In this document: one piece after another, positions 43,572 to 63,149 of the stretch
How the letters are laid out: each line of letters starts with the position of its first letter
How positions within the stretch are numbered: position 1 is the first letter of the stretch
Origin: Sinohyriopsis cumingii
Taxonomy: Eukaryota; Mollusca; Bivalvia; Unionida; Unionidae
DNA length: 64,000 nucleotides
Direction of reading: 5' to 3'
NCBI GenBank assembly: GCA_028554795.2
Contig: CM068832.1
Coordinates: 88,770,511 to 88,834,510 of the forward strand
The notes under the pieces: generated by a model
What the model was told of the DNA's origin: nothing
The model's database searches: none
The model's input: the letters and a program-made list of their open reading frames with translations, nothing else
Translations under genes and position numbers: made by a program

Positions 43572-44029
43572 AGTAGTGAACGGGGCCACCATAGGGACAA
43601 TGTTACTTACCATTAAAAACACCCCTGGGCCACTATAGGGACTATGTAAATTTAACATAGGAAAAATTGCTGGGCCACTATAGGGACAAGGGAATTTAAC
43701 ATGGGAATAGATTTTGGGCTTGTCTAGGGACAAGGGGAATTTAACATAGGAGAAAAAATCTATTTTAGGGACAAGGGGAATTGAACATGGGAGAAAAAAA
43801 TAGCAATTCTAGGGACAAGGGGAATTTAACATGGGAATAGAGTTTGGGCCTGTCTAGGGATTAGGGGAAATAGAACAGGGTCGGGACCCTATTTTAATAT
43901 GGTCCCGACGTGATGGGTCTCTATTTTTTTATTTTTTTTAAATATAAAAAAAATATAAAAAGGGGCAGGCAATTGAAAGTCTATCTCTTTTCGAGAGATT
44001 GGAGTGGCCCTGAAAAGGGCATTTGGGTT
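43572..44029 (+). repeat. left terminal inverted repeat of the Polinton
   Basis: It begins AGTAGTGAACGGGGCCACCA and mirrors 62694-63149. The outer two thirds are built from short internal repeats of the type CTAGGGACAAGGGGAATTTA plus ACATGGGA. Then come a GGTCGGGACC/GGTCCCGACG hairpin, an AT-rich block, and at the inner edge a purine block plus histone-type stem-loop on the minus strand. Confidence 0.95.
44006..44021 (-). terminator. histone-type 3' stem-loop behind the 44040-44460 gene
   Basis: The minus strand reads TGCCCTTTTCAGGGCC then ACTCCA. The five inner stem pairs and the UUUC loop match the metazoan histone mRNA element; the outermost pair is mismatched. It lies 18 nt after the stop of the gene on the same strand. 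CTCGAAAAGAGATAGA follows within 12 nt and resembles a U7-binding downstream element. It sits at the inner border of the left inverted repeat. Confidence 0.75.
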
Positions 44030-44039
44030 TCTTCTTCTT

Positions 44040-44460
44040 CTAACTCCTTAACTTCTTTATCCATCCCCTTATTTTTTCCATCATTCCTTTCTTCTTCTTT
44101 TCTGTTTCCGGTATCCAGTCCGGGTGACCCATGGCTCGGAACTTCTGTTGGATTTTCATCCAGTTAGTGTTTAGTTTCTCTAGTTCTTCCTTTTTCTTTC
44201 TATTTTCTTCTTCTTTTCTATCTTTTGCCCACCTGTCCTTTATTTTCTCCACTTCTTCATCTATCACCTTTCTCATCTTTTCTTCCCCTTTTTTCAATTG
44301 TTCAACACTCCTTTTGACAAAGGGCCACTCTGACCTTTTTTCTATCTCTTCCAAGAACCTTCTTACTTTTTTTACCTTCTGCAGCCAGCTCATTCACAAT
44401 ACGCCTGGCATATTCCAGGTGTACATGAAGTTCAAGCAGTTTTGCTAGTCTGGTGTTCAT
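44040..44460 (-). CDS. Lys/Glu-rich coiled-coil protein, terminal Polinton gene, frameshifted
   Basis: It starts at ATG 44460 (MNTRLAKLLELHVHLEYA). One frameshift near 44390 is needed to reach the long charged helix RSVEQLKKGEEKMRKVIDEE and the C terminus MEKIRGWIKKLRS. A continuous coiled coil is likely over about 70 residues. The start region resembles that of the neighbouring gene at 44919-45284 (CSKLAKLNEAYVNLHRVRHS), so the two are paralogues. It has its own TATA box and Inr (44489-44515). Function is unknown; by position it is an outward-facing terminal gene with a histone-type 3' end. Confidence 0.65.
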
Positions 44461-44488
44461 TCTCTTGATCAATCAACAAGGGTAGCTA

Positions 44489-44543
44489 GACTGCCGAGCG
44501 ATTTTCAATTTATACTAAAAGCGCGGACGTGAAGGAAAACATC
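44489..44543 (-). promoter_or_regulatory. promoter of the 44460 gene: 26-bp upstream element, TATA, Inr
   Basis: On the minus strand TTCCTTCACGTCCGCGCTTT belongs to a 26-bp block (44518-44543) repeated exactly at 45347-45372. It is followed by TATAAAT (44509-44515) and CAGTCTA as the likely initiator about 23 nt later. A third, weaker copy of the block lies at 44586-44608. Confidence 0.7.
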
Positions 44544-44607
44544 ACCTATAACGAAATTTATCTTACCTTGATCATGACCAAACAACGCGCGGACCTAAAA
44601 GAAAAAC

Positions 44608-44860
44608 TCACTTTTTTATACTACCCATTACTAATTTAAAAATTTTCATTAATCACTTCAATATACTATCCACATACGCAAAGCAATCAAATCAAACCCC
44701 AAATCTACTCTCCACGCACGTCAAACAGCAAAAAAACATTATCATTATCTACTATCCACACAAACACATACACTCTCACCACATAAGAGTCAGTGTTCAT
44801 ATTCACACTACTCTACATACACACATTGGCAAATCGATTGTTATTTCTTTTCTAGAAATT
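44608..44860. other. AT-rich spacer between two terminal Polinton genes
   Basis: Composed of A/C-rich runs such as CACACAAACACATACACTCT. No frame or signal is recognised apart from the stem-loop at its right border. Confidence 0.5.
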
Positions 44861-44865
44861 GGGGT

Positions 44866-44881
44866 AGCCCTGAAAAGGGCT
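44866..44881 (-). terminator. histone-type 3' stem-loop behind the 44919-45284 gene
   Basis: The minus strand reads AGCCCTTTTCAGGGCT then ACCCCA: a full six-pair stem with UUUC loop. The outermost pair is A-U where the other copies have G-C, a compensatory change. It lies 37 nt after the stop codon, and TTTCTAGAAAAGAAATAA follows as a purine-rich block. Confidence 0.8.
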
Positions 44882-44918
44882 GTTTTTTTGTGTGCGAAGT
44901 TGAAGCTATGGCGATCTT

Positions 44919-45284
44919 TTAGTTTCTAAGAATGCGACGTCCTCTGACGATAGACTTTCTGACGATAGGTCTGCTTCTTCGGAAAGAGAAGAAGAACTCT
45001 TTGGTGTCGATACGACAATCGACAAAGCCTCTGTCAGGTTCAGGTTTCTGTTGCTGCTGTTGTTGCTGCTGTTGCTGCTCTCTATGCTGTTTCTGAAGTC
45101 TGTACTTCTCTGTCCATTCTTCTTTCTCCCTGTTCACTTCTTCTCTGAAGAGCTCTTCTATCAGGTCTGCAGTGACTTTTAACATTCTCACATTTTCTGT
45201 CTCTTCAGGCTTCGGTATCAGACTGTGTCTGACCCTATGCAAATTCACGTAGGCTTCGTTTAGCTTAGCTAGTTTGGAGCACAT
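44919..45284 (-). CDS. Gln-rich coiled-coil protein, terminal Polinton gene
   Basis: About 121 residues from ATG 45284, chosen because MCSKLAKLNEAYVNLHRVRH aligns with the start of the neighbouring paralogue and because the promoter elements end just upstream; the frame is open further upstream. A Glu/Lys-rich helix (LKVTADLIEELFREEVNREK) is followed by a run of ten Gln and a basic C terminus (FRRSRPIVRKSIVRGRRILR). Uninterrupted. The basic tail would suit nucleic-acid binding, but no family is recognised. Followed by a histone-type stem-loop. Confidence 0.75.
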   Translation of the reverse strand: MCSKLAKLNEAYVNLHRVRHSLIPKPEETENVRMLKVTADLIEELFREEVNREKEEWTEKYRLQKQHREQQQQQQQQQQKPEPDRGFVDCRIDTKEFFFSFRRSRPIVRKSIVRGRRILRN

Positions 45285-45316
45285 CTTCGTAGGAGGATGA
45301 GTCGACAATGGATGGT

Positions 45317-45372
45317 TAGACTGGAGGCTGCCCAAGGTTTAAAGTCAAAGCGCGGACGTGAAGGAAAACATC
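45317..45372 (-). promoter_or_regulatory. promoter of the 44919-45284 gene
   Basis: It contains the same 26-bp block as the neighbour (45347-45372, core TTCACGTCCGCGC), a weak TATA-like TTTAAA (45337-45342) and the initiator-like CAGTCTAA. Spacing matches the neighbouring promoter. Confidence 0.65.
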
Positions 45373-45502
45373 CCTCCACGGTTTTCGAGCCGCAACGTTC
45401 AATGAGTGTCATGAGAGAGATAGAGAGAAGTCAAAGTGCATGAATCAAAATTCTTATAGCCAAACAAAAGACAAAGGCATTTTTTTTCAAAACACACCAT
45501 TT

Positions 45503-45508
45503 TTTATT
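45503..45508 (-). terminator. AATAAA polyadenylation signal behind the protease gene
   Basis: On the minus strand TTTTGAATAAAAAATGG follows the protease stop by about 105 nt, in a T-rich trailer. This contrasts with the stem-loops used by the more terminal genes. Confidence 0.6.
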
Positions 45509-45614
45509 CAAAATCACTTAACACTAACAAACAACTATAACATTTTTAACAATAATCCAACAATATAACATCAAACATTTTTTTCAAATACCAAACATTT
45601 TTTCAATTCACACA

Positions 45615-46175
45615 TTATTTTGGACAGGGCTGACAACGTTGTGAATGAAATTGTGATTTCCACTGTTGGAAGTCATTAGGCCATTGATGGACCTTTACGT
45701 TTCCTAGCTTGAGACAAATGATAGCATAATGGTCACAAAACCATCGATCTACTTTCACATCGTTTCTGGAAGAAGAACGAGGATCAAACTGATTCACTAA
45801 ATCTTCAAAGGAATAGCCCTGACTGCGATGATACAGAAAATACACGCAATATTGTCCACACACCAAGGAATCTGTTCCTTGTAATTTCACATTATTGAAT
45901 CGGGTGATCTGAGCATTTCTTCTCATAAAGTTAATGATATCGTCTTCCAAAGGAGGCAATCCATACGAATCGAAATATTCCACACATCCTTCTTGAGGAA
46001 AGTAGACGGCTACCCAGTGGGTTCCAGGGAGATGACTGTCGTCCGTGTTGATCACATAAGCTTGATGGTCTTGAGGTTTGCGATGAGGGAGTTCATCTTT
46101 AGCACAGACGACAGGATTCCAAGAAGCCCTGTACGAGCTGTGGTTCAAAAGGTATTAAAGTTCCCAGGTATCCAT
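45615..46175 (-). CDS. PRO: adenain-like cysteine protease, premature stop near the start
   Basis: A maturation protease of the adenovirus/Ulp1-like C48 fold that would process capsid precursors. THWVAVYFP carries the catalytic His, EYFDSYGLPP the Asp, and DSLVCGQYCVYFLYH the oxyanion Gln and nucleophile Cys, in the right order and spacing. From the natural-looking ATG at 46175 (MDTWEL) an in-frame TAA occurs at codon 7. The remainder is open for about 185 codons, so either the gene is broken or a later start is used. It lies downstream of the capsid genes, as is usual in Polintons. Confidence 0.9.
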
Positions 46176-46203
46176 TGATTTGTGTGGGTTGTTTTCTTCT
46201 TCT

Positions 46204-46707
46204 TCACAGGTAATGATAAGTGATCAATTCGATCCTGACTTTTTGCTTGAAAATGTCTGACAAGTAAAAGGCGTTTAGATCCGACTTCTTACTCTGGTCA
46301 AAGAGAGATTCGATGCGACGGCACTCCAGAGACGTTAATGGTGGAGAAGAATGTTTATCCAAGCCTTTATACCACTCGTTCAACACGAATTCTATCTCGA
46401 TGAGACCCCAAGCTTTGTCTAGATATTCGTCCAACTTTTCTTCTTGACTCAACATCAGACATTTGTCGTGTTGAATTTTGCTGGGATGATCGTTGTGACA
46501 TCCATAGCACTCTTACTTGATCAATTCTTTCATTATATCTGCCAGGACTGTAGCAAAACAGGAGACTAAATGGGCTTCTTGTTCTGGCCATCTTGACTTC
46601 ATCATGATAACTTCTTCGTCTTGAGATTTTTCTTCTTCTTCCACGGTCTCCTTACATTCCATCTTCAAAGTTTCTCCACTAGGTAAAGAGGGATAACAGT
46701 CTTCCAT
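46204..46707 (-). pseudogene. conserved Polinton small protein with CxxC/His motif, one in-frame stop
   Basis: Starts MEDCYPSLPSGETLKMECKE, then an acidic segment, then KSRWPEQEAHLVSCFATVL. An in-frame TAA (46513-46515) separates it from ECYGCHNDHPSKIQHDKCLM, a Cys/His-rich motif I associate with a small protein of many Polintons, followed by the helical C terminus. Residues C-x2-C-x6-H suggest metal binding. The function is unknown. It follows the major capsid gene by 5 bases. Confidence 0.7.
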
Positions 46708-46712
46708 AGCTT

Positions 46713-48038
46713 CTAATAATCTAGAATGACTTCTCTCAAACTGTTGATTTCCATGGTATTGTCAAATTCTGCATACAGGATGACGTTCACTGTGTGATCT
46801 GGAGGTAGATTTGCAAACTGAAGTTCCACACGAATCTGACCCGATTTTATAGGGTGGAAATGTCCCTCGTCGCTGCCTTGGTCTGGAGTGAAATCAAAAC
46901 CCCACAAAGCATAGCCTCCTGCATAATTGTCGTACGAAATACCGTGACTGGTGTTGGTTCCTAACTGTCCCGTGGTTTCGTACAGGGACAAGTACGATCT
47001 CAAATAATTCTTCGCGACACCAAAGTTAGGCTCAAAGGGTCGGGTACACAAGGTCTTGCCGTCGCGACTGACTTCGATCTTGGACACATTGTAATGTTGA
47101 AACTCAAAAGGATTTTGATCGTGGGTTCCGTTGAAGGCTGAATTCCTGACGATACCAACAATCAAACGCTTGGGTAACTGTCCTTGGAACAGATGATCTT
47201 CGATCATAGATCGCTGTCCAGCGGGAATGGTGAACGTTTTCACTTCTACGCGTCGTATCGGATACTTGGCGGTCGTTCTGCTCAACGTCTGACTGACGTC
47301 GTTTCCCACTTTAGGTAACACTTCCACACGACGCACGTAAAGTCGGGCTTCTTGAATGATAGTTTTGCATTCATTGGCATGGGCCATCAAATGGAAAGCG
47401 GCACTGCTACGATTCAGTCTCAGACGGACATCCACCCCGTTGAGCAAATACTTTTCTTGTAACCACATGTCCAAATGCAAACGATCCATCAGTTCTAAAC
47501 TTCGCCCTTGCAGAATTTTCTTACGACGGTCGTTAAACCCAACATTGTGAGGATTGTCATCTTCTGTCAGGACTGTGTCGCTAAACGTGGCTACACCTGC
47601 CGTGTCAGGTTTCCATACCACGCAAGCATCCAGATGAGTATTCTTGGCTTCTTTTCCGTACGTCAAGAGATTTTCCAGGTAGGCACGATATGGGTAAGTA
47701 TCCATGCAGCTGCTGACCAGTTTGTTATTCAAGTACAAGTCCACTTCGCTGAACAAGGAATGCATGAAATTGTTGACAGGAGCTACTCTAGCATCGCCTC
47801 CTGGATTGGTGTTGTCTGTTGTGATCACTTTCACTTTCAAATACAGGTAACAGCTATTCAGATCGATGTAATCTTCGGGTTGTCCTTTGATTTCAAACTC
47901 GATGGGAGCTCAATCCGTCAAAGAAGAGACGGGATGAAATTCCACCCACTGCGATTCTTGCATGGTCATCATCGTGGGGGGCGTGGCAAACAGATCCAGT
48001 TCCGACTTGGAACAGGCGCAAGACTCTCTGTGCATCAT
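46713..48038 (-). pseudogene. MCP: major capsid protein (double jelly-roll), one in-frame stop
   Basis: A frame of 441 residues from ATG 48038, broken only by a TGA at 47910-47912 (about codon 43). Downstream of it 375 codons are open. Recognisable segments of the Polinton hexon-like protein include MHSLFSEVDLYLNNKLVSS, YPYRAYLENLLTYG, FTIPAGQRSMIEDHLFQGQL, PKRLIVGIVRNSAFNG and YALWGFDFTPD. The length fits the family. It is a structural protein of the predicted icosahedral shell. The order minor capsid, basic protein, MCP, CxxC protein, protease on one strand suggests a late gene block. Confidence 0.92.
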
Positions 48039-48041
48039 TTT

Positions 48042-48416
48042 TCTCTTTCTCAATAATCGAAAACGTCTAAGTCTAGAACGGTTCTTCTTTTCTTTGCCTT
48101 TCTTGCTTTAGAAGTGTGAAATCTGGTGAAAGGGTGTTTTCTTCGTCGTCTCTTTCTGTCCTTGCTGAATGCCTGACTCGGTAGCGTGCAGGGCATTTAT
48201 AGGTGTTTCTCGTCGGCCCAAAAGGTCTTTGCCCATTTGCAGCTAGACATTTTTGCCTGCCCTCATGAAGGCTTCTTTAGGATTTTGTTTGTCGATGATG
48301 ACATTTTGGAGAAATTCTTTGCCTTGTGTCAGTGCAGAATCTTTCAAGGCGTGCAATCCGCGTGTCACCATCGGTTTCAACACCCGGGCCACCGAACGAA
48401 AGGCCGATTTTAACAT
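48042..48416 (-). pseudogene. small basic virion-core-like protein, two in-frame stops
   Basis: From ATG 48416 the frame reads MLKSAFRSVARVLKPMVTRG, continues for about 60 codons, meets TAG, then TAA, and ends in a very basic tail (KEKKNRSRLRRFRLLRKRK) directly before the MCP start, in the same frame. The small size, basic tail and position between the minor and major capsid genes suggest a DNA-condensing or core protein, by analogy with adenovirus core peptides; this is inference. Broken in this copy. Confidence 0.55.
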
Positions 48417-48429
48417 ATCTCCTACACTG

Positions 48430-49372
48430 GATACATGACTTACGAGTCGTGAGAGAACCGTTTTCGAAAATGGATTTCACCGTGACTTTTCGTTTGGTGA
48501 ATGGAATATTTTGTCCCAGATCTCCTTTTATAGCAATGTTGACCGTGTCCAAATACGACTTGCTGACAGGCAAATAGTGAGGATGTACAAATTCGCGGTG
48601 AACGTGGTAAGTGTTTCCACCTTCCTCGTCAGCGGTCGTGGCAGAATCCACTTTGAAAGGAATGACACGCAGTAACGGCACAGAGGTGTGTCCCACCATG
48701 TTATACTCCACCACATCGGATTACACAAACATCAAATTCAGTCCTTGGTTCAGTTCTACCGGGGCACGAAATAACTTGCTAAAAGACTCGTTGTCGTAAA
48801 TGATTGGTAATTCGTTTTTCTTGAGCATGGCCATTCTCATGGCCATGTCTCCGCCCAACATGTCAAACAATTCAGGACAAAATAAAATGGACACGATATT
48901 ACTCCCGTCAAATTTCATCAAGAAGCGACGAGCTGCTTTGTGGTATTCCAGGGTGACACTTTTTTTTGACACTTTCCAAAGCTTTCAGAAACACGACATT
49001 AAACCTGGAGGCTATGGTGCTCACCAAATGTTGACCACTAAAATAATAGCCTGGGGGAACGAACAAGTGATAGGTGGTGTACTTTTGATTTTGTGTGCCA
49101 GGGGTTTTTATGTTATATTTGCCATGGGTATCCAAGTACAGTTGCATTTGCTCTTCATGAACTTCCACATCAAAAAAGTTTTGATTGGGAAGGACATTGA
49201 GGACTTGGTTCGGGTGAATGATTTCTACTAAAGCCACTTCCCAATGGGCTTCGTGATCTAATTGGATGGTCTGAGGTAATTTGGCCGTGTAACAGCACAA
49301 CGTGTTCTTGGGAAACACCTCCATGGAACTGTCACTGGGTAAGGTTAAGTAAAATTGGTTTTGGTGACTCAT
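48430..49372 (-). pseudogene. mCP: minor capsid (penton-like, single jelly-roll) protein, broken
   Basis: Starts MSHQNQFYLTLPSDSSMEVF with TAKLPQTIQLDHEAHWEVAL, typical of the Polinton penton protein. A frameshift lies in the run of eight T at 48960-48967; the next frame begins KKSVTLEYHKAARRFLMKFD. An in-frame TAA follows at 48721-48723, after which VVEYNMVGHTSVPLLRVIPF continues. The start codon overlaps the stop of the upstream membrane-protein frame (ATGA). The C-terminal limit is approximate. Confidence 0.85.
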
Positions 49373-49778
49373 AATTCCAGAGTTCTGTGGCTGTCCGAGG
49401 GGTTACTGGACGTCAGAGGAGTGTCTCCGCCCAAAATAGGGTTGTTGTTGTTATTGGAGTGGTGACTGACACTGGCACTGGACACAAGGTTCCCGTTGTT
49501 CCCGTTCGAGGAGAATTTCAGGGAGGGATTGGGAAGAAGGTAACCGATGCAGCTGCTCAATAAAATGGTCCACAATTGTTTGTCTCCTTTTTGCAAACTT
49601 AAATTGGCTATGGCTGCCCCGATGATACAATACACCACGAAGATTTGGCAGAAAAAGACGATTTGCGTTTTAGGCACACGTTCTCCACACCACACCCATA
49701 AGGGTTGATTTGTAAATCTTGCAGAGAAGAACTGGGTGAAGGAGTGGTCGCCGTAGCTGAGTCTGTGTGAAAGGGCAT
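49369..49778 (-). CDS. two-pass membrane protein conserved in Polintons, probably frameshifted
   Basis: The conserved part reads TNQPLWVWCGERVPKTQIVF, then a hydrophobic helix FFCQIFVVYCIIGAAIANLS, a short loop KGDKQLW, a second hydrophobic stretch TILLSSCIGYLLPNPSLKFS, and an Asn/Ser-rich tail. The likely ATG at 49778 (MPFHTDSATATTPS) is in a different frame, so one shift near 49710 is needed. Membrane location is inferred from the two segments. It starts 6 bases after the integrase stop and overlaps the next start (ATGA). Confidence 0.7.
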
Positions 49779-49783
49779 GATGG

Positions 49784-50893
49784 TCACTTCTTTTTATAGT
49801 CGATGACTTGCGAAGAGTCGATCCAAGAATCAAAACTGGGTGGATATCCTTTCCAACGTACTTTGACTTCTTTAACACGTCGTTTGCCCACTTTACGAGT
49901 TCTGCGTTCGAGAATGCTTTCGATGTCGTACACGTCGTCTTCTTTTTTGGTGATACGTTGTAACTCGGGCAAATAAAACGTTCCTTTGAGCACTTCTCCG
50001 TTCATGTCTTCCAATTTATAGATGGCAGGATGACGGCCATGCACTCGTCCAGTGACACGAAACAATTCGGTAGTCCAGTTAGGTAAGTAACCTTTGTCGA
50101 AAGTGCGTTTGGTTTTGCCAATGCGCACCCAATCTCCTACGGCCAACATTCCACTTTTCTTGGGCACAACCCTAGTCGGAGACGTACCAAACAGGTGATC
50201 AGGCACCAGCACTTCGTTCTCGGGACTCACCTCTTGCGGGGCACTTCCAATGCTTCGATGGTAAGATTGGTTGTACGCTTGCACCAAGTGCGGTAAGATG
50301 TCGATGTACTTCAGAGTGTGGTGATGCGTAAAATATTTCCACATGCGTTCTTTCAAAGTGCGTTGAAAACGTTCCACGATGCTGGCTTTGGTTTGAGGAT
50401 TCTCGGTGGTAAACAAATGAATGTCACGTTTCTTTAATTCTTTTTGGAAAGCTTGGTTCAGAAATTCGGTGCCTTTGTCCGTTTGCCATCGAAGAGGGTG
50501 ACGACCACTTTGTTTCAACACTCGTTGCAGGGCTCGCACTAACTCTTGGCTCGATTTGGAAGTCAAGGGTACGACCCAGGCAAATTTGGAAAAGACGTCG
50601 ATGACACAAAACAAATATTTGTAGCCGCGATTGTAGCTGGCCAAATGAGAGACATCGGCAAAATCGGCTTGACATTGATGATCGATGCCTTCCACTCGGG
50701 TGCGACTTCTGGAAAACTTGCATCGAATGGGTTTGTGTAAAGTGTAGATAGCTTGTTCTTGTAACCATCGTTGCACTTGAGGTAAACGAAGACTTTTCAG
50801 TCGAGTTTTGGCAGCACGATACAATTTTTGAACTCCTGCGTAGCCTGCAGGATGGGAGGGATCGTAGTAAATTTTGGCTAACACCTTCTCCAT
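49784..50893 (-). CDS. INT: retroviral-type integrase with C-terminal chromodomain, intact
   Basis: 369 residues, no interruption. It would insert the element into host DNA, giving the 6-bp duplication. The DDE core is D77 (HQCQADFADVSHL), D139 (LRWQTDKGTEF) and E174 (TKASIVERFQRTL). The N terminus has a degenerate zinc-type region (HPAGYAGVQKLYRAAK) and the middle an SH3-like segment (AVGDWVRIGK). Residues about 320-366 form a chromodomain (VYDIESILERR, VKVRWKGYPPSFDSWI), which could direct insertion to methylated histone tails. Start ATG 50893; one frame throughout, unlike its neighbours. The open frame suggests it decayed last or was under longer selection. Confidence 0.95.
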   Translation of the reverse strand: MEKVLAKIYYDPSHPAGYAGVQKLYRAAKTRLKSLRLPQVQRWLQEQAIYTLHKPIRCKFSRSRTRVEGIDHQCQADFADVSHLASYNRGYKYLFCVIDVFSKFAWVVPLTSKSSQELVRALQRVLKQSGRHPLRWQTDKGTEFLNQAFQKELKKRDIHLFTTENPQTKASIVERFQRTLKERMWKYFTHHHTLKYIDILPHLVQAYNQSYHRSIGSAPQEVSPENEVLVPDHLFGTSPTRVVPKKSGMLAVGDWVRIGKTKRTFDKGYLPNWTTELFRVTGRVHGRHPAIYKLEDMNGEVLKGTFYLPELQRITKKEDDVYDIESILERRTRKVGKRRVKEVKVRWKGYPPSFDSWIDSSQVIDYKKK

Positions 50894-50905
50894 TTTTTTA
50901 GTTTC

Positions 50906-51056
50906 TTAATAAGGCACCCACTCTTCGAGGGTGCTACTTTGGGTGGGACGAAAGGGTGGTTTGGAAACGGATTTACGTGTCCGATGGGCTACGGGAGTAG
51001 AAGTCAAAGGTAGTGGTGGAGGTGGCAATGGAATGGTGGCTAACACTTTATCCATT
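50906..51056 (-). pseudogene. short frame with start and end resembling its neighbours
   Basis: It begins ATGGATAAAGTGTTAGCC, close to the integrase start ATGGAGAAGGTGTTAGCC 163 bases away, then has a Pro-rich stretch (IPLPPPPLPLT). The distal end reads RTRKSVSKPPFRPTQSSTLE plus EWVPY in a frame offset by one base. That ending resembles the end of the next gene upstream (RTRKALQSKK, SSILQEWVSY). A one-base shift near 51000 disrupts it. It looks like a duplication product. Confidence 0.55.
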
Positions 51057-51071
51057 TTGTGTTTTTATTTG

Positions 51072-55218: not shown

Positions 55219-55230
55219 GAATAGGTCATA

Positions 55231-55686
55231 CTAAATCCTCTTTTGTCTGACACAATAAATGTACCGTTTGCACAGACATGGTTTTAATTCATTGTCGAAT
55301 CTAAATCGTTTAATCACTAATCTACACATTAAAATTCGTTCAGAAGTTTCCTCTTTCACTAAGTTGACATTGCATAAAAGATGTTGGTAATTCGTTAACT
55401 CTTCCTCTGGAATTGGATGCAGTAAGTTTACAATGTAGTAGATAGAATTATCAATACCAAACCAATTCTTTATAAAACCAGGGGGTCGTTGATCAATGTC
55501 TGTCCAATGGAACACTTTCAACTCAATGACTCCTTGTATAGCATTCAGGTTCCAGTGGTTCAAACACCGGTGACGTAACGGATGCAACTGTTCTTTACGT
55601 TTGACTTGTATTTTGACCAGCTCTCGGTAAATGCGTTCTCTCAACTCCACAGGCAAAGCACGAATGTTCTCTTGTAAAGTATCCAT
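55231..55686 (-). CDS. duplicated accessory gene, copy 1, intact, unknown family
   Basis: 151 residues, open from ATG 55686. It starts MDTLQENIRALPVELRERIY, continues NHWNLNAIQGVIELKVFHWT, and ends CKRYIYCVRQKRI. The N-terminal ALPVELRERIYREL has the spacing of an F-box-like helix but this is weak. No enzyme motif. It is one of three adjacent small genes after the BIR gene; by place and duplication I infer a host-interaction role. Confidence 0.65.
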   Translation of the reverse strand: MDTLQENIRALPVELRERIYRELVKIQVKRKEQLHPLRHRCLNHWNLNAIQGVIELKVFHWTDIDQRPPGFIKNWFGIDNSIYYIVNLLHPIPEEELTNYQHLLCNVNLVKEETSERILMCRLVIKRFRFDNELKPCLCKRYIYCVRQKRI

Positions 55687-55707
55687 GAATAGATCAGTCC
55701 GTACAAT

Positions 55708-56048
55708 TCACAATCTTCTCCTAGAGCAAAAGTAATCCACATAGTGAGTAATTTCTGACCACTGCCATTCAGGGTAACGTCCAAGAATCTCATTAAACTC
55801 TTTTGATGTAAACGGTCCTGAGTGACTTTTTTCACTTTCCTCTTGTGAATTTCTCGGCACAAAAGTTCTACAGTTACCCAGTGAGATTTCACTCTGGCAA
55901 GTCCCTGCCAAACTTCCTTGTACATCTTCTCTTGCAGTTCTTTATGTAATGATTCAATATCGTTTATGAAATGAAGTTTAAATACTGGACTCGGTGATGT
56001 CCAACATTTGATTCCTAACCAATCTGGTTTCTTCTTCTTCAACGACAT
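55708..56048 (-). pseudogene. accessory Polinton protein, probably frameshifted
   Basis: It starts MSLKKKKPDWLGIKCWTSPS and continues SLHKELQEKMYKEVWQGLAR. The more protein-like ending, FNEILGRYPEWQWSEITHYV, lies in another frame, so one shift near 55830 is likely. HKELQEKMYKEV is reminiscent of VELRERIYREL in the next genes, so distant kinship is possible. No known family. Confidence 0.5.
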
Positions 56049-56059
56049 GGTAAGTTCCT

Positions 56060-56371
56060 TTAATGTCTCGGTCCCACTAAGGGTAAGTAATGACAATTCG
56101 GTGACCAACGAGCATGTTCTACGTAGGCCGAATCTTGCGGTTCCCAGTGCTGAAGTGACACACCGCAACTGAAGCACTTGACTTTATCCCCTTCGCCCAA
56201 GTAGAAAAATCCGGCTCTGGCTAATTCTTCGGGGATCGGTCCTCCCAGATACTTAGGCCATTTTCCTTTGAACGATTGAAGACGATTTTCAAAGTCGCAG
56301 TATTCCTGCAAACGCACAGGGAAGGAATATTCGTCTTTCACAGGTTCGTTTCGATGAGGGCAGGGTGACAT
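56060..56371 (-). CDS. single-BIR protein (IAP-like), intact
   Basis: 103 residues with one complete BIR zinc domain. R30 and the WP at 38-39 open it (RLQSFKGKWPKYL), then LARAGFFYLGEGDKVKCFSC. Zinc ligands are C66, C69, H86 and C93 with C-x2-C-x16-H-x6-C spacing. No RING or second BIR follows. BIR proteins restrain caspases or related signalling; in a virus-like element an anti-apoptotic role is plausible but not shown here. It could have been captured from a host IAP gene. It overlaps the 3' end of the preceding frame by 83 bases. Confidence 0.92.
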   Translation of the reverse strand: MSPCPHRNEPVKDEYSFPVRLQEYCDFENRLQSFKGKWPKYLGGPIPEELARAGFFYLGEGDKVKCFSCGVSLQHWEPQDSAYVEHARWSPNCHYLPLVGPRH

Positions 56372-56690
56372 GGAGTTTGCTCAGGGCTGGATGACATCCG
56401 TGGTGGGGTAAACGTAAAGGTGGACATTCAGCTTTAAAACGAAACACAGTAAAGTGTCCAAGAGGACGAGCGGCATCGCTTTCGCATCCCTCGGGTTTGA
56501 CACGCACAGCATCACTTTCCATGATAGGGGTAGTGAGAACAAAGTTCCCATGATGCTTTACGGCATCACTAAGGTCACAGCGTACAGCATCGTTCCCATC
56601 GCAAGGCTCACAATCGCATTCCACTTCAGAAGTCCCAAACTTGAATTGTGCCTTTCTGAACTTGTTTTGTGTTTCTCTGAAAGTATTCAT
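56289..56690 (-). CDS. Cys/Asp-rich small frame, unknown function
   Basis: 133 codons starting 33 bases after the polymerase stop (MNTFRETQNKFRKAQFKFGT). It shows an internal repeat: GNDAVRCDLSDAVKHHGNF, MESDAVRVKPEGCESDAARP. The last 27 codons overlap the BIR start in another frame. A TATA-like TATATTAAAAGG on the minus strand (near 56750) sits inside the end of the polymerase gene. Possibly expressed, but not certain. Confidence 0.45.
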   Translation of the reverse strand: MNTFRETQNKFRKAQFKFGTSEVECDCEPCDGNDAVRCDLSDAVKHHGNFVLTTPIMESDAVRVKPEGCESDAARPLGHFTVFRFKAECPPLRLPHHGCHPALSKLHVTLPSSKRTCERRIFLPCAFAGILRL

Positions 56691-56722
56691 CTTGTTCGCT
56701 TGGTCTTGGTAGTCACAATGAA

Positions 56723-59700
56723 CTATCGATCTTGCCTAGGGTTCCTTTTAATATACAGACCAATACCGACGTGTCCATACGGTAAGGTGAAATGAATGGA
56801 AAGTCGCACTCGCTTCTGGTACACGATTTGATAGACTTTTTCCAAGCGTCGACTGACGATGTGGTGAGTGGATAAACGTACAATCTTGTTGGGCTGATAG
56901 GTGATCACTTTAAAGTGTTCATCTTCTCTAGACTGCAAGGCTTCTTTCAATACCCCAAAGTTCACCAGTCGACTGGTACGATAATTCAGAGTCAATCCTT
57001 TCACTTTACACGTCGTGTGCACTTCTCCTTGTTTGTCTGGTATTTGTAGCCGTAATTTTTTGGACCACCACTGACGAAACTTAGAATCTTGTCGTCGGGG
57101 TGCTCGTCTGTCCAGGCTCCTAAACGGTCTCCTTCGAAGTCAGAGTGCTGTTGACTCGGATGATCGATGTAAATGCAACTGTTCGTGTCAAAGTACAGGA
57201 CACGTTCCCCTAATAGTTCTAAAGCTTCGTACAGTTTTAAGCGAGCATGAGCTGTCACGTAAGCCGCAATGATGATATTTCCAAAGGGGTCGTCTTCTAC
57301 AAAGTCCAGATCTTCTTCGTAATTGACCAAGATCAAATTCTCGCGAACGACTTCCACGTGTTTCATGAATTTGGTTTTGTCGTGAATCATCTGGAAGTAG
57401 CGGGAAGGTTCGGTCAAATATTCCGTCCTGGGTAAACACGGTCGTTGTGCCATTTTTCCCCACAAGCAATATAACATCACTTTGGCAAACGATCGCCTGC
57501 CTTCGTTTTTCTCGATGTGGTCTAAAGCGATGCCTTCTTGTGCCCAGTATTTCTCATTGAATTGTATTTGGTCCTCGGGAGTGTGACACCAGGACGGATA
57601 GCCACTGGCTTCTTGCTTCAGTTTTAAAACGGCATCCACGTAGTCTGCGAAAATGCCTTTCTGTGTGGGGCCACCCTTGTGGTATTGTTCTGTCTTGGGA
57701 AAGTGACAAATTTCGTACACTTATAACAGTTGGTATCCCATGTCCAAAGCTTTGAAGAATTCTACGCTGACCCAGGCTCCCGTCAAGGCCCGTTCTTCCT
57801 GGGTGTGCTGACAAGGTTGGTCTTGGTTGCAGGTTTCGGCAAAAGTACGGCACAAAGGAAACATCAGTTTGCCTTGACAATGGTGAGGTAAGAGGGGATG
57901 GTACAAGTCCGTGGGAGGCAAAACTTTGCACTTGATCAAACCTTCGTATTGTCGAATGTTTTTCAGGTCGATGTGTTCGGTGAACAATTGCGGGTGCCCT
58001 GCAGGAAAGCGACAATATTTGCACACGTAGGGATACAGCGAACACACGTCCAAGTATTTGATTCTTTCTCCTTTCTCTGCTTCGACTTGGTACAGCAAAC
58101 AGGTGGCATTGGTCCTTCCTCCGTACAAACCACCCCTCGGGTTCAGGGGGTCCATGAACTGGTAACTTTCCACGAGGAGTTTAAACTCGGGATCGGTTTT
58201 TAAACGGTGATCCTACTCGTGTTCCCACATTTCCACCACTTGGTATCCTTCCTGTTCTAACTTTAGGCGTCGCTGACAAGTATAATGGTACAAGTCTTCC
58301 ATGGTTAGTTGTAAAAACTGATTTTTAGTGCCACGGTCAGGGTAACAGACGGGGCATCCGTGAAATAAGCAACCGTTACACTCGTACACGATCTTGGGGT
58401 TTTCTAAGTCTCAGCCATCGACCGAATGCGTTCCGATGGCCTTTCCCACCCCCCACCCCCTACGTTGCGGGCATGCTGAATCCACTTGTCTTCCTTGTCG
58501 CACAAGTAATGTAACGAACGTAGGGCTTTGACCGAGTATTGACGTTTGACATAGTTGGTCGTTTGAGGACTGATGACAGCCACGGTGTTTTCAGGCACGA
58601 ATCTTTGCCGGTACACTAAGGAACACGCTTTGGCAATGGTGCAAGCTTGTTTCAAAGTATCGACCCATCCGTGTTCCACGAACAGTTCTCGAAATTTTCC
58701 ACAGCATCGACGTAAAATGTCCACGTCGGAACGACAATACTTTAGCATTTCTTCCTGAAAGTCGAAAGGGTCAGAGGCATGAGCCTGGTACCAAGCGTAG
58801 AAAGCGTCTCGTTGTTCGGTACGCATGTTGTCAGGGTCGTAATAGTGAGCCTCAGGTAAATGGGGTAGAACGACGCGTTGACTGGCTTCGGTATTGAAAA
58901 AGTGTGGAAAGTGCCCTTTAGCCATTTCTGTCATTCCAAACGTTTTAGGCATTCGACTCAAAGGCATGGCCAAATAGCTCATCGAATCTTTAAACTGTAC
59001 TTGTCCCACTTGCATGAAAATGATTTTGGCTCCGTTCAAAGTGACTTTAGGACGCTGGTACCATGTTCCGTATAGTATCCCAAAAGAAACTGTCCATCGT
59101 ATCCGGAGAAATTGTAAGCCATCATCGTGGCATGACGATGACAATCTCGGTAACGTTCGATGTCCTCTTGGCTCCACGTCTTGTCGATGGGGTCTAAGAC
59201 CCATCGGGCGAAATCGGCTAGCGTGTTCGGCCCTCGAAAGATTTTTTCACGTCCTCCGGGAATCTTACTGCAGTGAGGGCAATAACTCAAGATAGGTTCT
59301 TGAATGCACTTTTCGCACGCTCGATAAGGCACGCAGAAATTAGGAATGTGAATACCGGTCTCTTGCATGCATTCGAAATCGAAAAAGATGAAATTGCCTT
59401 TCTTCTTGTGTCCATCCTCTTTCTCTGGTTGGGATTGGTATTTTTGCACGTAGCATTGGTGTTCCAAGTCTACGATGTGGTGACAAATGTGACATTTTTT
59501 CTTTCCTGAACATACGTGTGCCTTGGTACTATTGGTACGTATGCCTTGTCCACACGTGGGGCACAATCTCAGGAGTTGACAAGCACATTTCTTCTGTGCA
59601 CCTTGCGTCTTCAAATGTTGTTGGTAACAGGTAGGGCTGACAAACGTGCGCAGACAAGTTGAATAATGCACTGATTCTTGTCCTTCGCTCAGACAGGGTG

Positions 59701-60796
59701 GAGAGGCCAAACATCCTGAGCATTTCGATCCACAATGCTTGTGTTGCTCTCGATTGTTATAACCATAGTCACATTTCTCACAACGATATCTGTATCCCAG
59801 GAATCCAGTGATACTGGTAATGGTATCAAAATGGTGATCGTGATGATAGAGGTGAATGTATTTTCCATCCTTAAAATCTTGGCCTCGAAACAACAGAGGC
59901 CCGCGTACTTCTTGAGGGTACACTTTCAAGGTGTAGCGTGGAGCTAGGATATCTTGCAATTTTTGCATTTCAGGAATGCCACAGGGTTTGTCTTTGGACA
60001 GGCCGGATTGTTGCAACAGGAGTTCTGCTTCACTTCGTTGTTTGGCTCAGTCCGATTTTCGAATGTTCTCCCAGGCTCTTTTCCATTCTGCCGTGTCGTT
60101 TTTGTCGACATAGGTTCGTCCCACCACAATGGCACGGGCTAAACACATCTGGTCCTGAAGGTTGTTAATTCGGACGAGGCTCTTTTTGGTGGTACGAAGG
60201 TCGTTCACCAATAAAACCTTTTTGCGGTCAGTCCCTTGAGGAGGAGAGACGTGGGTCATGTCCAGTGTGGATTTTCCAACGGTGATGTCAAACTGGTCAT
60301 TGGATTGTTGCACGTGTTGAATCTTGTCCATGACTTTGGAAGCGGTCAATTCTGCAGGGCTGACAAACTCGATCCAAACAGGGGATTTCAAACCGTCGTG
60401 TTGTATGCAAAGTCTCAAGCGACCGTCTTCTTTGGCTTGACATTTTCGCTTGAGTGTGGTGAGCAAAGAATCCCACATCTCGGTGATGAACCCTTCTGCT
60501 TTCTCTAACGGTACTTCGGACTTGAAATCTTTAAACTTCACCGTGTATTTGTAAGCCGTGGTTCTAAATTTTCTAGAGGGACGCTTTTCCGTCTCTCGAA
60601 TGTCATAGTACTTTTCAGGGTTGACTAAGGGCGGTGAACTTTGTTTAGAGGGTTCGGATTCTGGTTCACTCATGTCCTCTTCAAAATCACTGGCATGAAT
60701 TTGTGCTAAGACTTCAGCCCTGGTACGAGGCGATAGATCACGTTTCTGCCTCTTACTTTCTTCTTCTTTCTTCTTGAATAAATTGGATCGTTTCAT
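56723..60796 (-). pseudogene. POLB: protein-primed DNA polymerase B, several stops and shifts, altered motif C
   Basis: About 1,350 codons, as expected for Polinton pPolB. An N-terminal Lys/Glu-rich part (from MKRSNLFKKKEEESKRQKR) is followed by a Cys/His-rich zinc-type region (CEKCDYGYNNREQHKHC and others). Exonuclease motifs are FFDFECMQE, AYNFSGYDGQF and YCRSDVDILR. Polymerase motifs are LDVCSLYPYVC (A), KVMLYCLWGK (B) and LYFDTNSCIYI (C), where the usual second Asp is Asn (codon 57181-57183). Breaks: TGA 60047-60049; shifts near 59080, 58440 (G-rich run) and 57025; TAG 58213-58215; TAA 57721-57723. It would replicate the element from protein-capped ends. This copy cannot make an active enzyme. 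Confidence 0.93.
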
Positions 60797-60932
60797 CTTG
60801 ATAGCAAAACGTCAAATGGCTAAAGTTTAAACACCATGGACTAATTTATAGTCATGGCAGACCAGCGTATATAAAAGGGTGTGTGTCTTGTCCTTTCACT
60901 ATTCATTTTTAACTCTCAAACCGAGCACTACG
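60797..60932. promoter_or_regulatory. divergent promoter between POLB and the zinc-knuckle gene
   Basis: Two TATA boxes point outward. TATAAA on the minus strand (60845-60850) serves POLB about 50 nt downstream. TATATAAAA on the plus strand (60868-60876) serves the gene starting at 60933. They are only about 20 bp apart, so the two genes probably share upstream control. Confidence 0.75.
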
Positions 60933-61322
60933 ATGGAAGAGACTACACAAATCGAACGTTTCATCAGAGCTTTGCGTGGGGTCATTAGAAAATTCTCTTC
61001 AGACCAGCCGACAGACTGCTCTCCTTCCTTGCGAGATAAAAGTCAAGATACTTGCTATATCTGTCAGAAGAAAGGGCATTGGTCTTCAGAGTGTCCAGAC
61101 CGTCAAAAAAGAAAAACAGGGGCTAAAAGAGACAAAAGTCAAGATACATGTTATCATTGTCAAGAAAAAGGACATTGGTCTCCAGACTGCCCAAAAAAGG
61201 AACAAGAGGAGTCAGAAGAAGAGAGGGATTCTTCAGAGGAAGAAGAAGAAGAAGAGGAGGAAGAAAGCAGACAGGTGAAAAAAAAAGAAACAGGAGAAGA
61301 AAAGAAGAAGGGAAGAAAGTGA
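60933..61322 (+). CDS. double CCHC zinc-knuckle protein
   Basis: 129 residues from ATG 60933 (MEETTQIERFIRALRGVIRK). It has two knuckles of C-x2-C-x4-H-x4-C form: CYICQKKGHWSSECP and CYHCQEKGHWSPDCP, each preceded by DKSQDT, so the unit was duplicated internally. A long Glu-rich, then Lys-rich tail follows. Such knuckles bind single-stranded nucleic acid; here they may help packaging, replication or RNA handling. A further acidic/basic stretch lies in another frame after the stop (EEEKIVTVKKFKKQRD), hinting at a late frameshift. Own TATA box and AATAAA. Confidence 0.88.
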   Translation: MEETTQIERFIRALRGVIRKFSSDQPTDCSPSLRDKSQDTCYICQKKGHWSSECPDRQKRKTGAKRDKSQDTCYHCQEKGHWSPDCPKKEQEESEEERDSSEEEEEEEEEESRQVKKKETGEEKKKGRK

Positions 61323-61461
61323 GGAGGAAGAGGAGGAAAAGATTGTAACGGTGAAGAAATTCAAAAAACAGAGAGACTAAACAATGAGACAGAAGAAGTC
61401 TATGAACTTTTTAAAGTGCTCTGTTGTGAATTATGAACTGGATTGTAAATATTTATAAAAG

Positions 61462-61467
61462 AATAAA
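61462..61467 (+). terminator. AATAAA polyadenylation signal of the zinc-knuckle gene
   Basis: AAAAGAATAAATTAGG, about 140 nt after the stop. The neighbouring minus-strand gene instead ends in a histone-type stem-loop at 61622-61637. Confidence 0.65.
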
Positions 61468-61582
61468 TTAGGTATAAAAAGGTAAGTGTCTTTGGGTTTT
61501 GATTTTAAAATAAGAACGTACACCCACACATTCATAAACAGACACGTACTATAGGATTAAAATTTTTTTTTTTTTTGAGTTA

Positions 61583-61637
61583 TTGGCAATTGAAGTCTAT
61601 CTCTTTTCGAGAGACGTGGGTGGCCCTGAAAAGGGCC
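61583..61637 (-). terminator. histone-type 3' stem-loop and downstream block behind the 61661-62230 gene
   Basis: The minus strand reads GGCCCTTTTCAGGGCC (61622-61637) then ACCCA, an exact fit to the metazoan histone mRNA element with its 3' flank. After 8 more bases comes CTCGAAAAGAGATAGA, resembling a histone downstream element. It begins 23 nt after the stop. The same block occurs in the terminal inverted repeats, including the following GGCAATTGAA motif. Confidence 0.88.
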
Positions 61638-61660
61638 TTTTTCTTGGTGTAGGGGTGAGT

Positions 61661-62230
61661 TTAAGCAATCAACTTTAACTGCCTTAAGCCTTTGCCACGG
61701 CCAAGGCCTACTTCTGGACTGCGTACTGTTGATGATGATGATTTGGCTGAAATCACTAAGGGTGGCACGGTAGGCTTAGTCACAGGGTTGGAGTGTTTAG
61801 CTCGGGAAGGTCGTATTCTCTTCGGTCGTAATAAAGAAGTCTGATACATTTGTTTCAGACTTCTTAACTCCGCTAAAATGTCTAACAGTACCGTGACCGT
61901 TTGATTTTCACACCCTTGTTTCTTTGTTGCTGCTTCTTCTTGTTGTTGTTTTTTCTTACCTCTTCTTCTTGCTGTTGTTGCTGTAGAAGAAAAGCTTGTT
62001 CCGCTTCCTTTTGCTGTTGTATAAATTTCTTCAATTCTTCTTAATGTCTCTGTCTAAAATTCTCCACGTGCGGTAATGAAGAAGGTGACGAAGGTTCCGG
62101 AACAAATTCTTGCGAGATAAGAAAATCCACAAAATCCCAATTCACCTCTTCTGAAAGTTAAGTCCGGGTTCCCTTGGTTGGTCTCCACTGCTGGGGCACC
62201 CCAATTTATCGTTTTCTGAGTTTCCGTCAT
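61661..62230 (-). pseudogene. Gln-rich coiled-coil protein, terminal Polinton gene, broken
   Basis: ATG 62230 starts MTETQKTINWGAPAVETNQG. After a shift near 62155 the frame reads NWDFVDFLISQEFVPEPSSP, meets one stop near 62042, then EELKKFIQQQKEAEQAFLLQ with Gln runs, VTVLLDILAELRSLKQMYQT, and a basic Ser/Pro C terminus ending GLRQLKLIA. The Gln-rich helix and basic tail resemble the gene at 44919-45284. The start fits the TATA box at 62279-62286 and the CAGTC initiator. Confidence 0.65.
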
Positions 62231-62450
62231 GTTGAAAAAACTGTCACATGGATTGACTGCACACAGGCGCTAGCGAATCTATATAGACTTCGTGACGTCA
62301 CAGACTGCTCTCTTTCGATTGGACGTGGGCTGACTAAATTTTGTAACGCGTGTTTGGATTGGTCAATGAACTCAATCCGTTTCAATCCTTCCTCTGCCTA
62401 TAAATAAGCGCAGTTCACTGCAGTGATTCACCTGTTCTCGGCGCCTCAGC
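62231..62450. promoter_or_regulatory. divergent promoter at the right end, two TATA boxes and a CRE-type site
   Basis: A minus-strand TATATAG lies at 62279-62286 with CAGTC about 25 nt on. A plus-strand TATAAATA lies at 62399-62406, about 45 nt before ATG 62451. Between them are the palindrome TGACGTCA (62293-62300) and two inverted CCAAT motifs (CGATTGGACG, GGATTGGTCAA). This looks like a compact bidirectional RNA polymerase II promoter. Confidence 0.72.
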
Positions 62451-62681
62451 ATGTGGACCGACGTTGAATCTTCCACCCTTGTGTCAACAATGATGTTCAG
62501 GACGGACATACCGAAGTATGTCCGATCCGAATGGACAGTTGTCCATAGGACCGCCACCAGCCTGTGGATACGTAGGATTTACGTGGAGAGGCAAGGATGC
62601 CTCAAAAGAGTGTCAGTGTATGGTCCTACCATTAGACGAAGCCTAAGGACAAGAAGAAGTCACAGATGCCCTTTATGTTAA
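62451..62681 (+). CDS. small Arg-rich protein, rightmost Polinton gene
   Basis: 76 residues from ATG 62451 (MWTDVESSTLVSTMMFRTDI). About 13 Arg and 2 Lys against 5 acidic residues give a strong positive charge, concentrated at the end (TIRRSLRTRRSHRCPLC). No family is recognised. Its size and charge recall small DNA-binding core peptides or transcription modulators. It has its own TATA box and is followed 20 nt later by a histone-type stem-loop, which supports it as a real gene. Confidence 0.7.
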   Translation: MWTDVESSTLVSTMMFRTDIPKYVRSEWTVVHRTATSLWIRRIYVERQGCLKRVSVYGPTIRRSLRTRRSHRCPLC

Positions 62682-62693
62682 GGGCATATATAA

Positions 62694-63149
62694 AACCAAA
62701 GGCCCTTTTCAGGGCCACTCCAATCTCTCGAAAAGAGATAGACTTTCAATTGCCTGCCCCTTTTTTTATTTTGTTATTTTTTTAAAAAATAAATAAATAG
62801 AGACCCATCACGTCGGGACCATATTAAAATAGGGTCCCGACCCTGTTCTATTTCCCCTAGTCCCTAGACAGGCCCAAACTCTATTCCCATGTTAAATTCC
62901 CCTTGTCCCTAGAATTGCTATTTTTTTCTCCCATGTTCAATTCCCCTTGTCCCTAAAGTAGTTTTTTTCTCCTATGTTAAATTCCCCTTGTCCCTAGACA
63001 AGCCCAAAATCTATTCCCATGTTAAATTCCCTTGTCCCTATAGTGGCCCAGCAATTTTCCCCATGTTAAATTTACATAGTCCCTATAGTGGCCCAGGGGT
63101 GTTTTTAATGGTAAGTCCCATTGTCCCTATGGTGGCCCCATTCACTACT
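62694..63149 (-). repeat. right terminal inverted repeat of the Polinton
   Basis: Mirror of 43572-44029, ending TTCACTACT before the TATACC target copy. Differences from the left copy are scattered substitutions and small indels. It carries the same internal CTAGGGACAAGG-type subrepeats and, at the inner edge, the plus-strand stem-loop. Confidence 0.95.
62701..62716 (+). terminator. histone-type 3' stem-loop behind the 76-residue gene
   Basis: CCAAAGGCCCTTTTCAGGGC followed by CACTCCA: six-pair stem, UUUC loop, A-rich 5' flank and ACTCCA 3' flank. CTCTCGAAAAGAGATAGAC follows 9 nt later. It is 20 nt after the stop codon and inside the right inverted repeat. Confidence 0.88.

Follow-up and report, generated by a model that had tools for sequence, protein, structure and literature searches.

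A stretch of 64,000 nucleotides of the Sinohyriopsis cumingii genome (the window) raises the question of why the outermost genes of a mobile element should end in stem-loops of the kind found in histone mRNAs; among the mRNAs of animals, those of histones are generally taught to be the only ones closed by a stem-loop and not by poly(A). The comparisons described here suggest that this Polinton family very probably runs its terminal genes as honorary histone genes, within the host histone regulon and tied to S phase.

Organization of the Polinton and its terminal genes

The window contains a Polinton (Maverick) of 19,578 bp (43572..63149) with the ends AGTAGT...ACTACT, recognized by its TIRs, ends, TSD and genes. 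The TIRs are ~460 nt long (left, 43572..44030; right, 62692..63149; inverted-repeat pairs I1 and I2) and the 6-bp TSD, read from the sequence, is TATACC on both the left (43566..43571) and the right (63150..63155), such that the element has the TIRs and 6-bp TSD of a Polinton. This copy is decayed. The major capsid protein gene (46713..47765, minus strand; homologue search) has 802 homologues at E≤0.001, and among the 120 listed the named ones are 'F54H12.2-like' proteins of bivalves, a name that we take to denote the Polinton capsid. An integrase gene with a chromodomain (49784..50893, minus strand; Pfam rve 51.9 bits, Chromo 30.5 bits) and a DNA polymerase B gene of the organellar/viral type (57721..59204, minus strand) are also present; the latter is in pieces, two of which match DNA_pol_B_2 at 51.7 and 41.5 bits (cut-off 25.8). 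A fragment of a putative packaging ATPase scores under the cut-off with both Pox_A32 (20.4 bits) and FtsK (18.4 bits). The integrase, type-B polymerase, capsid, TIRs and 6-bp TSD are features shared with Polintons/Mavericks and adintoviruses, from which the window family differs in the histone-type 3' ends of its terminal genes and the histone promoters at its left end.

The left end carries a broken terminal gene (44040..44460, minus strand; reading frames of 52 and 117 aa), of which by eye the 5' part is like gene B2 and the 3' part like gene A of relatives, and terminal gene B1 (44919..45284, minus strand), with a reading frame of 121 aa (112–123 aa in relatives). At the right end are gene C (61661..62230, minus strand), decayed to pieces of 58 and 62 aa (189–195 aa in relatives) and transcribed towards a CCHC gene of opposite orientation, and gene D (62451..62681, plus strand), with a reading frame of 76 aa and one 76-aa relative with a pI of 11.1. 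The preliminary description placed a gene before each stem-loop; in the window, gene C is there only as the 62-aa remnant, and the gene before SL1 is broken. None of the terminal proteins matches a histone family in Pfam up to E=0.1, nor up to E=1.

Stem-loops and promoters in comparison with host histone genes

Four histone-type 3' stem-loops were located on the strands and at the positions given in the preliminary description, with the Rfam RF00032 model and a 16-mer search in agreement. SL1 (44006..44021, minus strand; 24.0 bits) is at the inner edge of the left TIR, SL2 (44866..44881, minus strand; 30.6 bits) has the form AGCCCU UUUC AGGGCU, and SL3 (61622..61637, minus strand; 37.1 bits) is followed at the right end by SL4 (62701..62716, plus strand; 35.9 bits), at the inner edge of the right TIR. 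The RF00032 gathering score is 34 bits, which two of the four exceed and which SL1 and SL2 do not reach. Because they lie at the TIR inner edges, SL1 and SL4 are two copies of one sequence and not independent. The 16-mer search (≤3 mismatches) found five matches against 0.20 expected, a number reached in 0 of 100 shuffles, although the fifth match in the window is not histone-like in form. Six-base stem arms had been described throughout; the exception is SL1, which folds with five pairs and a T-C mismatch at the outer position.

The distances from stop codon to stem-loop are 18, 37, 23 and 19 nt, as described (18–37 nt), and the purine-rich block reported behind all four is likewise present as an HDE-like block, in each case 13 nt after the stem. 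It reads GAAAAGAG behind SL1 (43985..43992, minus strand), SL3 (61601..61608, minus strand) and SL4 (62730..62737, plus strand), and GAAAAGAA behind SL2 (44845..44852, minus strand). A scan of positions 43000-64000 with RF00032 up to E=5 gave no match beyond SL1–SL4 and no unit behind any core gene, the capsid gene included, so the restriction to the four outermost genes holds for this copy; relatives have up to five terminal genes with units (A, B1, B2, C and D). A second hairpin spanning the purine block is foldable in the window copies, with apparent covariation in SL2, and was rejected since an alignment of 32 rows did no better than shuffles.

The host histone unit has five genes, whose stem-loops score 35.0–39.4 bits with RF00032 and are followed by GAAAAG after 13 or 14 nt. 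The layout is alike in host histone and Polinton terminal genes, with a stem-loop, a spacer and a purine block; the spacer is 13–14 nt in the host and 12–14 nt in element copies. The spacing comparison of the two kept only GAAAA-bearing sites, such that its counts cannot reveal misses. With metazoan replication-dependent histone genes in general the terminal genes have in common the sequence and shape of the stem-loop, its flanks, the 12–14 nt spacing and the short distance from the stop codon, as well as, at the left end, promoter elements. They differ in that the proteins are non-histone by Pfam and the genes reside in a dispersed mobile element of very high copy number.

The promoter likeness is found at the left end. 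Element M1 (22 nt) is upstream of both the gene before SL1 (44521..44542, minus strand) and B1 (45350..45371, minus strand) and is also present at host H2B and H1; it led, unsought, to a tandem H2B array. Element M2 (44584..44604, minus strand) shares all of its 21 nt with the promoter of host H4. M1/M2 sharing between left-end genes and host histone promoters arose in 0 of 30 shuffles, and five of six alignments of the left promoters of the window with those of host H4, H2B and H1 score 39–45 (background maximum 28). The elements are mostly 52–69 nt upstream of the left-end start codons, and TCACGTCCGC may resemble a HiNF-P/MIZF site. Genome-wide, M1 occurs at 32,541 places (0 in the reversed control), and 50 of the 60 places listed are upstream of an exact unit, versus 2% at random. 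The promoters of genes C and D in the window have no M1 or M2. Upstream of gene D, GATTGG, TTCAATCC and TATAAAT (62357..62405, plus strand) follow an order weakly like that of host H2A, with a local score of 25 that was as high in 4 of 400 background windows; pattern M3 was derived from this gene D/H2A pair and matches both by construction. None of the four terminal-gene promoters in the window is similar to that of host H3, and neither histone promoter elements nor 3' units are present in the window Polinton outside the terminal genes.

These promoters bear on whether the units might serve only as compact terminators, with SLBP/U7 cleavage providing a short, strand-specific 3' end for crowded genes and no meaningful S-phase control. 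The units are ~60 nt long and located where genes crowd, as where gene C faces the CCHC gene, and the right-end genes are without histone promoter elements, all of which would suit such a role. The promoter elements on the left-end genes would however be needless for a pure terminator, and the core genes of the window do without the unit, and we consider this explanation unlikely.

Copies of the terminal units in the host genome

The stem-loops were expected in related Polintons and are present in other copies in the same genome: of 17 left-end pieces from copies selected by their capsid gene, irrespective of stem-loops, 16 have units, and the remaining one is without the end genes. A first sample of ten copies, taken from 116 listed capsid matches, has the unit at 10 of 10 left ends and, at right ends where the site is covered, SL4 in 7/7 and SL3 in 5/6; two of the ten pieces stop short of the right end. 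Seven further, divergent copies (from 97; capsid 78–91% identical to that of the window) have units in six. In relatives the stem-loop is usually 15–33 nt after the stop codon of a terminal gene, and with the window included the usual range is 15–37 nt. GAAAA is in place at all 35 core-type stem-loops of the ten-copy sample, a count that excludes 9 of 44 hairpins without a histone core. Variants include a stem-loop without a purine block (copy L103), the loss of SL3 (L177) and a degenerate hairpin without a purine block that was dropped from the counts (L176); several units are behind broken frames in some copies.

Exact copies of the unit, among them that of host H2B, number 47,964 in the 2.9 Gb genome, with none for the reversed control. 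A genome search with RF00032 (589,472 candidates) gave 75 scored matches, all above the cut-off, and the best 30 of these are without exception ends of the same Polinton family, scoring up to 45.6 bits. In a stem alignment of 32 rows from the window, host and ten-copy sites (identical rows omitted), the outer pair is G-C in 18 and A-U in 13, a change that splits the B-type class from the rest and may represent very few events; further pair types are not above shuffles. Two read-through database proteins fit the presence of the unit in other contigs. The reading of these structures as histone-mRNA-type 3' ends is strongly supported by covariance-model matches, likeness to host histone genes and conservation in divergent copies, and the read-through proteins are consistent with it.

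Copying alone could account for part of this pattern if a piece of a histone gene had been captured once and carried along without function. SL1 and SL4 are indeed TIR copies, and among the 116 listed capsid matches 115 are at 97% identity, the remaining one being the window itself; many copies are recent and conservation is therefore partly descent. Such a passenger is nonetheless very improbable, as the unit is present on several separate genes on the correct strand and in the correct place, the purine block is 0.98–0.99 identical versus 0.41–0.92 for the flanks, and intact frames keep a similar stop-to-stem distance. Hairpins acting as DNA in element replication, packaging or recombination, and not in RNA processing, are scarcely credible: two border the TIRs, but SL2 and SL3 are outside them, hairpin orientation tracks the gene strand, and the purine block, for which a DNA hairpin has no use, is just as conserved and has its counterpart in host histone genes.

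Proposed expression with the host histone genes

As probable members of the host histone regulon, the terminal genes would be expressed in S phase, a reading strengthened by the host histone promoter elements at the left-end genes, which the preliminary description does not mention. The promoter elements would recruit S-phase histone transcription machinery of the HiNF-P/NPAT type, SLBP and U7 snRNP would bind the nascent terminal-gene transcripts, and these would be cut after the stem and receive no poly(A). The mRNAs would be translated during S phase and destroyed when it ends, such that the Polinton would make early or regulatory proteins only while the host cell replicates its DNA. The most likely origin of the cassette is a host histone gene, with later spread through tandem duplication of genes (A, B2 and B1) and through TIR copying (SL1/SL4).

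The trans-acting factors were sought in the host. The purine-block sequences in question for pairing with the U7 5' end are CUAGAAAAGA or UCGAAAAGA. No convincing U7 snRNA gene emerged: a genome search with RF00066 gave a best score of 29.3 bits (cut-off 34), and a pattern modelled on known U7 RNAs matched 145 places versus 285 in the reversed control; two adjoining candidates (L198 and L199) were discarded, as RF00066 matches neither up to E=1. A six-frame genome search for SLBP with PF15247 found no match in the host or in any of 14 control genomes, and is uninformative, given that introns may split the SLBP gene. In the 160 nt that follow the unit, AATAAA is present for 18 of 31 B-type (16 of them at 64 nt), 2 of 14 A/D and 1 of 3 C units, and likewise for one of six host stem-loops (L162); polyadenylated read-through is therefore possible behind many B-type units.

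If this account is correct, it adds a new means by which a virus or transposon sets the timing of its expression within the cell cycle. On balance it seems probable that a set of non-histone genes is enrolled at both promoter and 3' end in the host histone regulon, with thousands of integrated copies reading S phase directly. The SLBP/U7/histone-locus-body machinery of the host might then be burdened or remodelled by tens of thousands of signals, and the products of the terminal genes may influence replication or chromatin during S phase. The host genome has many copies bearing open terminal genes, which makes the proposal directly testable, and these provide natural variants for learning the requirements of SLBP, U7 and histone promoter factors beyond the usual model animals.

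The titles and abstract openings of the papers found describe no Polinton with histone-type 3' ends or promoters on its terminal genes. A parallel is offered by the 'Histoid' genes, viral histone homologues of adomaviruses and tailtomaviruses (PMC11071296), which likewise are animal-associated DNA viruses drawing on the histone system; these viruses take the histone protein, whereas the non-histone genes of the window Polinton take the histone expression signals. No relatives of the window Polinton were found in the viral_contigs or genome_contigs collections, and two stem-loop plus purine patterns gave 0 and 0 matches in viral_contigs, where the stem-loop alone has 101. A single match to the combined pattern lies in a contig of a bacterial MAG (L190).

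The Polinton and its stem-loops

The Polinton is 19,578 bp long (43572-63149); its terminal inverted repeats (TIRs) measure ~460 nt, and the target-site duplication, TATACC, is perfect. Its genes include those for a capsid and a chromodomain-bearing rve integrase, along with pieces of a type-B polymerase. The copy is decayed: the polymerase is fragmented, as are several of the terminal genes. Eukaryotic names among the capsid relatives listed are those of bivalves (Mercenaria, Ostrea, Crassostrea, and Saccostrea). A degenerate ~44-bp tandem repeat fills roughly half of each TIR (43626-43869 and 62852-63095). A gene with a BIR (inhibitor of apoptosis) domain lies within the element at 56060-56371 on the minus strand (85.7 bits, cut-off 22.9), and a two-zinc-knuckle (CCHC) gene (60933-61322, plus strand) lies on the strand opposite most of the element and runs towards the right-end gene C.

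The four histone-type stem-loops reported in the preliminary description are all confirmed: SL1 (44006-44021), SL2 (44866-44881), and SL3 (61622-61637) on the minus strand, and SL4 (62701-62716) on the plus strand. Their scores with the Rfam histone 3′ stem-loop model RF00032 are, from highest to lowest, 37.1, 35.9, 30.6, and 24.0 bits (gathering score 34), and there is no further match up to E=5 across 43000-64000. Two points had been missed: SL1 has five pairs only, and SL1 and SL4 sit at the inner edges of the TIRs, so that they are copies of each other.

Units in other copies and behind the terminal genes

A genome search with RF00032, in which 75 of 589,472 candidates were scored, gave 75 matches above the cut-off. 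The sample comprised the best 30 of these 75. All 30 correspond to ends of this element, and a second stem-loop is 0.8-1.34 kb away in 29 of them; at one, L103, the stem-loop is present and the purine block absent. Because this sample had been selected by stem-loop, two further samples were chosen by capsid. The first contains 10 copies taken at intervals along 116 listed (the best of 26,412 candidates). All ten left ends have at least one unit (stem-loop, linker, and purine block), that of L164 without an open frame ahead; two of the ten pieces ended short of the right end, and where the place was covered SL4 is present in 7/7 and SL3 in 5/6, with a deletion at the SL3 place in L177. A search of this sample by shape only found 44 hairpins: 35 have the histone core, one of these being a degenerate relic, and GAAAA is in place at all 35; the other nine lack the core. 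The second sample has seven copies from 97 listed with a Mercenaria capsid query, with capsids 78-91% identical to that in the window; six have two or three units, and in the seventh (L196) neither a unit nor terminal genes were seen. A histone-like stem-loop with a purine block also occurs on a contig binned as a deltaproteobacterium (L190, 7561-7595), perhaps animal contamination.

Relatives of the element have up to five terminal genes: A (107-204 aa, very variable), B2 (102-124 aa), and B1 (112-123 aa where intact) in tandem on the left, and C (189-195 aa) and D (76-78 aa), divergent, on the right. The stem-loop usually begins 15-33 nt past the stop codon; the distance is exceptional in gene A of L197 (53 nt) and at L120, L123, and L125 (56-82 nt), and broken frames also occur. 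No terminal protein matches a Pfam family above cut-off; that of gene D is strongly basic (pI 11.1). The protein database has two relatives of D and 19 of C, and two of these (P0122 and P0137) extend beyond the usual stop with tails (KPFSGPLTLLEN... and WPISGPPTSLEKR...) that align to the translated stem-loop, linker, and purine block. These protein tails suggest that in other contigs, too, D and C are followed by the unit. The gene adjoining B1, which we take from its sequence to be protease-like, has AATAAA or ATTAAA 111-116 nt past the stop in all five loci with the frame listed.

Identity among 31 B-type units is 0.99 in the purine block, 0.95 in the linker, and 0.55-0.78 in the flanks; among 14 A/D-type units it is 0.98 and 0.85 in block and linker, 0.92 immediately downstream, and 0.41-0.65 upstream and beyond 60 nt. 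Stem identity (1.00 and 0.99) is partly fixed by the selection of units and carries no weight as evidence. Of 32 rows, 18 have G-C and 13 have A-U as the outer stem pair, a change that may represent very few events since it separates B-type from other units.

Host histone genes and a common promoter element

A PF00125 search of the genome gave 150 scored matches out of 662 candidates, mostly on small contigs and spaced near 8.3 kb. One stretch (L162) contains H3, H4, H2B, H2A, and H1, identified by reading their frames and all on the same strand, each with a stem-loop of 35.0-39.4 bits. GAAAAG starts 13 nt after the stem in H3, H4, and H2B and 14 nt after it in H2A and H1; the purine block is 13 nt past the stem in all four window units, and the 16 nt stem-loop of host H2B is identical to SL3 and SL4. 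A further block, roughly TCAATTTTGCC, was seen by eye at similar distance after the purine block in several host histone genes and element units. Genome searches identified neither a U7 nor an SLBP gene in the host, the six-frame SLBP search being silent in control genomes too. Two adjacent U7-like sequences, with UCUUUUC ahead of an Sm-like site and without Rfam support, lie in G000:C4:8385556-8413177 (L198 and L199).

Reading the upstream regions of the terminal genes beside those of host histone genes revealed a common element, M1 (ATGTTTTC[ACT][AT]TCACGTCCGCGC), the core of which presumably resembles a HiNF-P site. Allowing up to three mismatches, M1 is confined within the 64 kb window to the regions ahead of B1 and of the gene that precedes SL1. 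In the host stretch it lies ahead of H2B and H1, and a copy with three mismatches separates H2B from H2A. The promoter of the gene before SL1 also has a 21-nt identity with H4, and neither feature was found in any of 30 shuffled windows. Alignment of the two left promoters of the window to those of H4, H2B, and H1 scores 39-45 in five of six pairs (B1-H4, 26), against a background maximum of 28 in 400 windows. The D promoter scores 25 with H2A, a value reached by 4/400 background windows; alignment of the C promoter to host histone promoters gave nothing, and the H3 promoter shows no notable similarity to any of the four in the window. At other left ends M1 is mostly 52-69 nt ahead of a start codon, gene A usually having a second copy ~70 nt further upstream, and it is absent from L196 and from right ends.

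With two of its positions free to vary, M1 is present 32,541 times genome-wide, and the reversed control not at all. For 50 of the 60 listed M1 places in the stretch common to the M1 and unit listings, an exact unit follows on that strand no more than 2.5 kb downstream (random places, 2%). Seven of 100 listed M1 places form an array on contig 1 with a period of ~1,851 bp, and one repeat, read without prior knowledge of its content, encodes, by reading, a 127-aa histone H2B; behind it stand a stem-loop (37.2 bits) and a variant purine block, GTAAAAGA. M1 is thus, judged by sequence, a histone-gene promoter element of the host. The array (L200, G000:C1:5073951-5085078, minus strand), of which one repeat was read, is apparently of H2B alone and lies apart from the five-gene arrays.

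Predicted expression and abundance of the family

Replication-dependent histone mRNAs of metazoans are S-phase products whose 3′ ends, each a stem-loop, arise by cleavage with SLBP and U7 snRNP, and mammalian H4 promoters are activated by HiNF-P with NPAT (PMC5706932); in Hydractinia, histone genes that have both the stem-loop and a purine-rich element show S-phase expression (PMC5011920), and in the bivalve Lucina the stem-loop is present, with purine-rich elements noted for some genes only (PMC6210712). The terminal genes of the element probably share the transcription and processing of histone genes, and would hence be expressed in S phase. Counting against a strict reading, AATAAA lies within 160 nt downstream in 18/31 B-type units, and a polyadenylated form of these transcripts may therefore exist too. 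Among the papers listed, largely outside subscription, no title or abstract start describes non-histone genes with histone-type 3′ ends in a Polinton or any other virus, and no paper was found for 'Polinton' together with 'histone stem-loop'.

The family is extremely abundant, with more than 100 near-identical capsid frames among the matches listed. The exact pattern of stem core, 14 nt, and GAAAAGA occurs 47,964 times genome-wide, a count that takes in host H2B genes of the five-gene kind, and the reversed pattern does not occur. With four or five units in each element, we infer that copies number around ten thousand and may make up several per cent of the host assembly (2.90 Gb, in which the window is C9:88770511-88834510). 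The first 100 places on contig 1 have the expected layout, with 18 divergent pairs at distances of 1,087-1,125 bp, 28 same-strand neighbours at 0.8-2.1 kb, 30 gaps that span 11.7-20.7 kb, and 15 isolated places.
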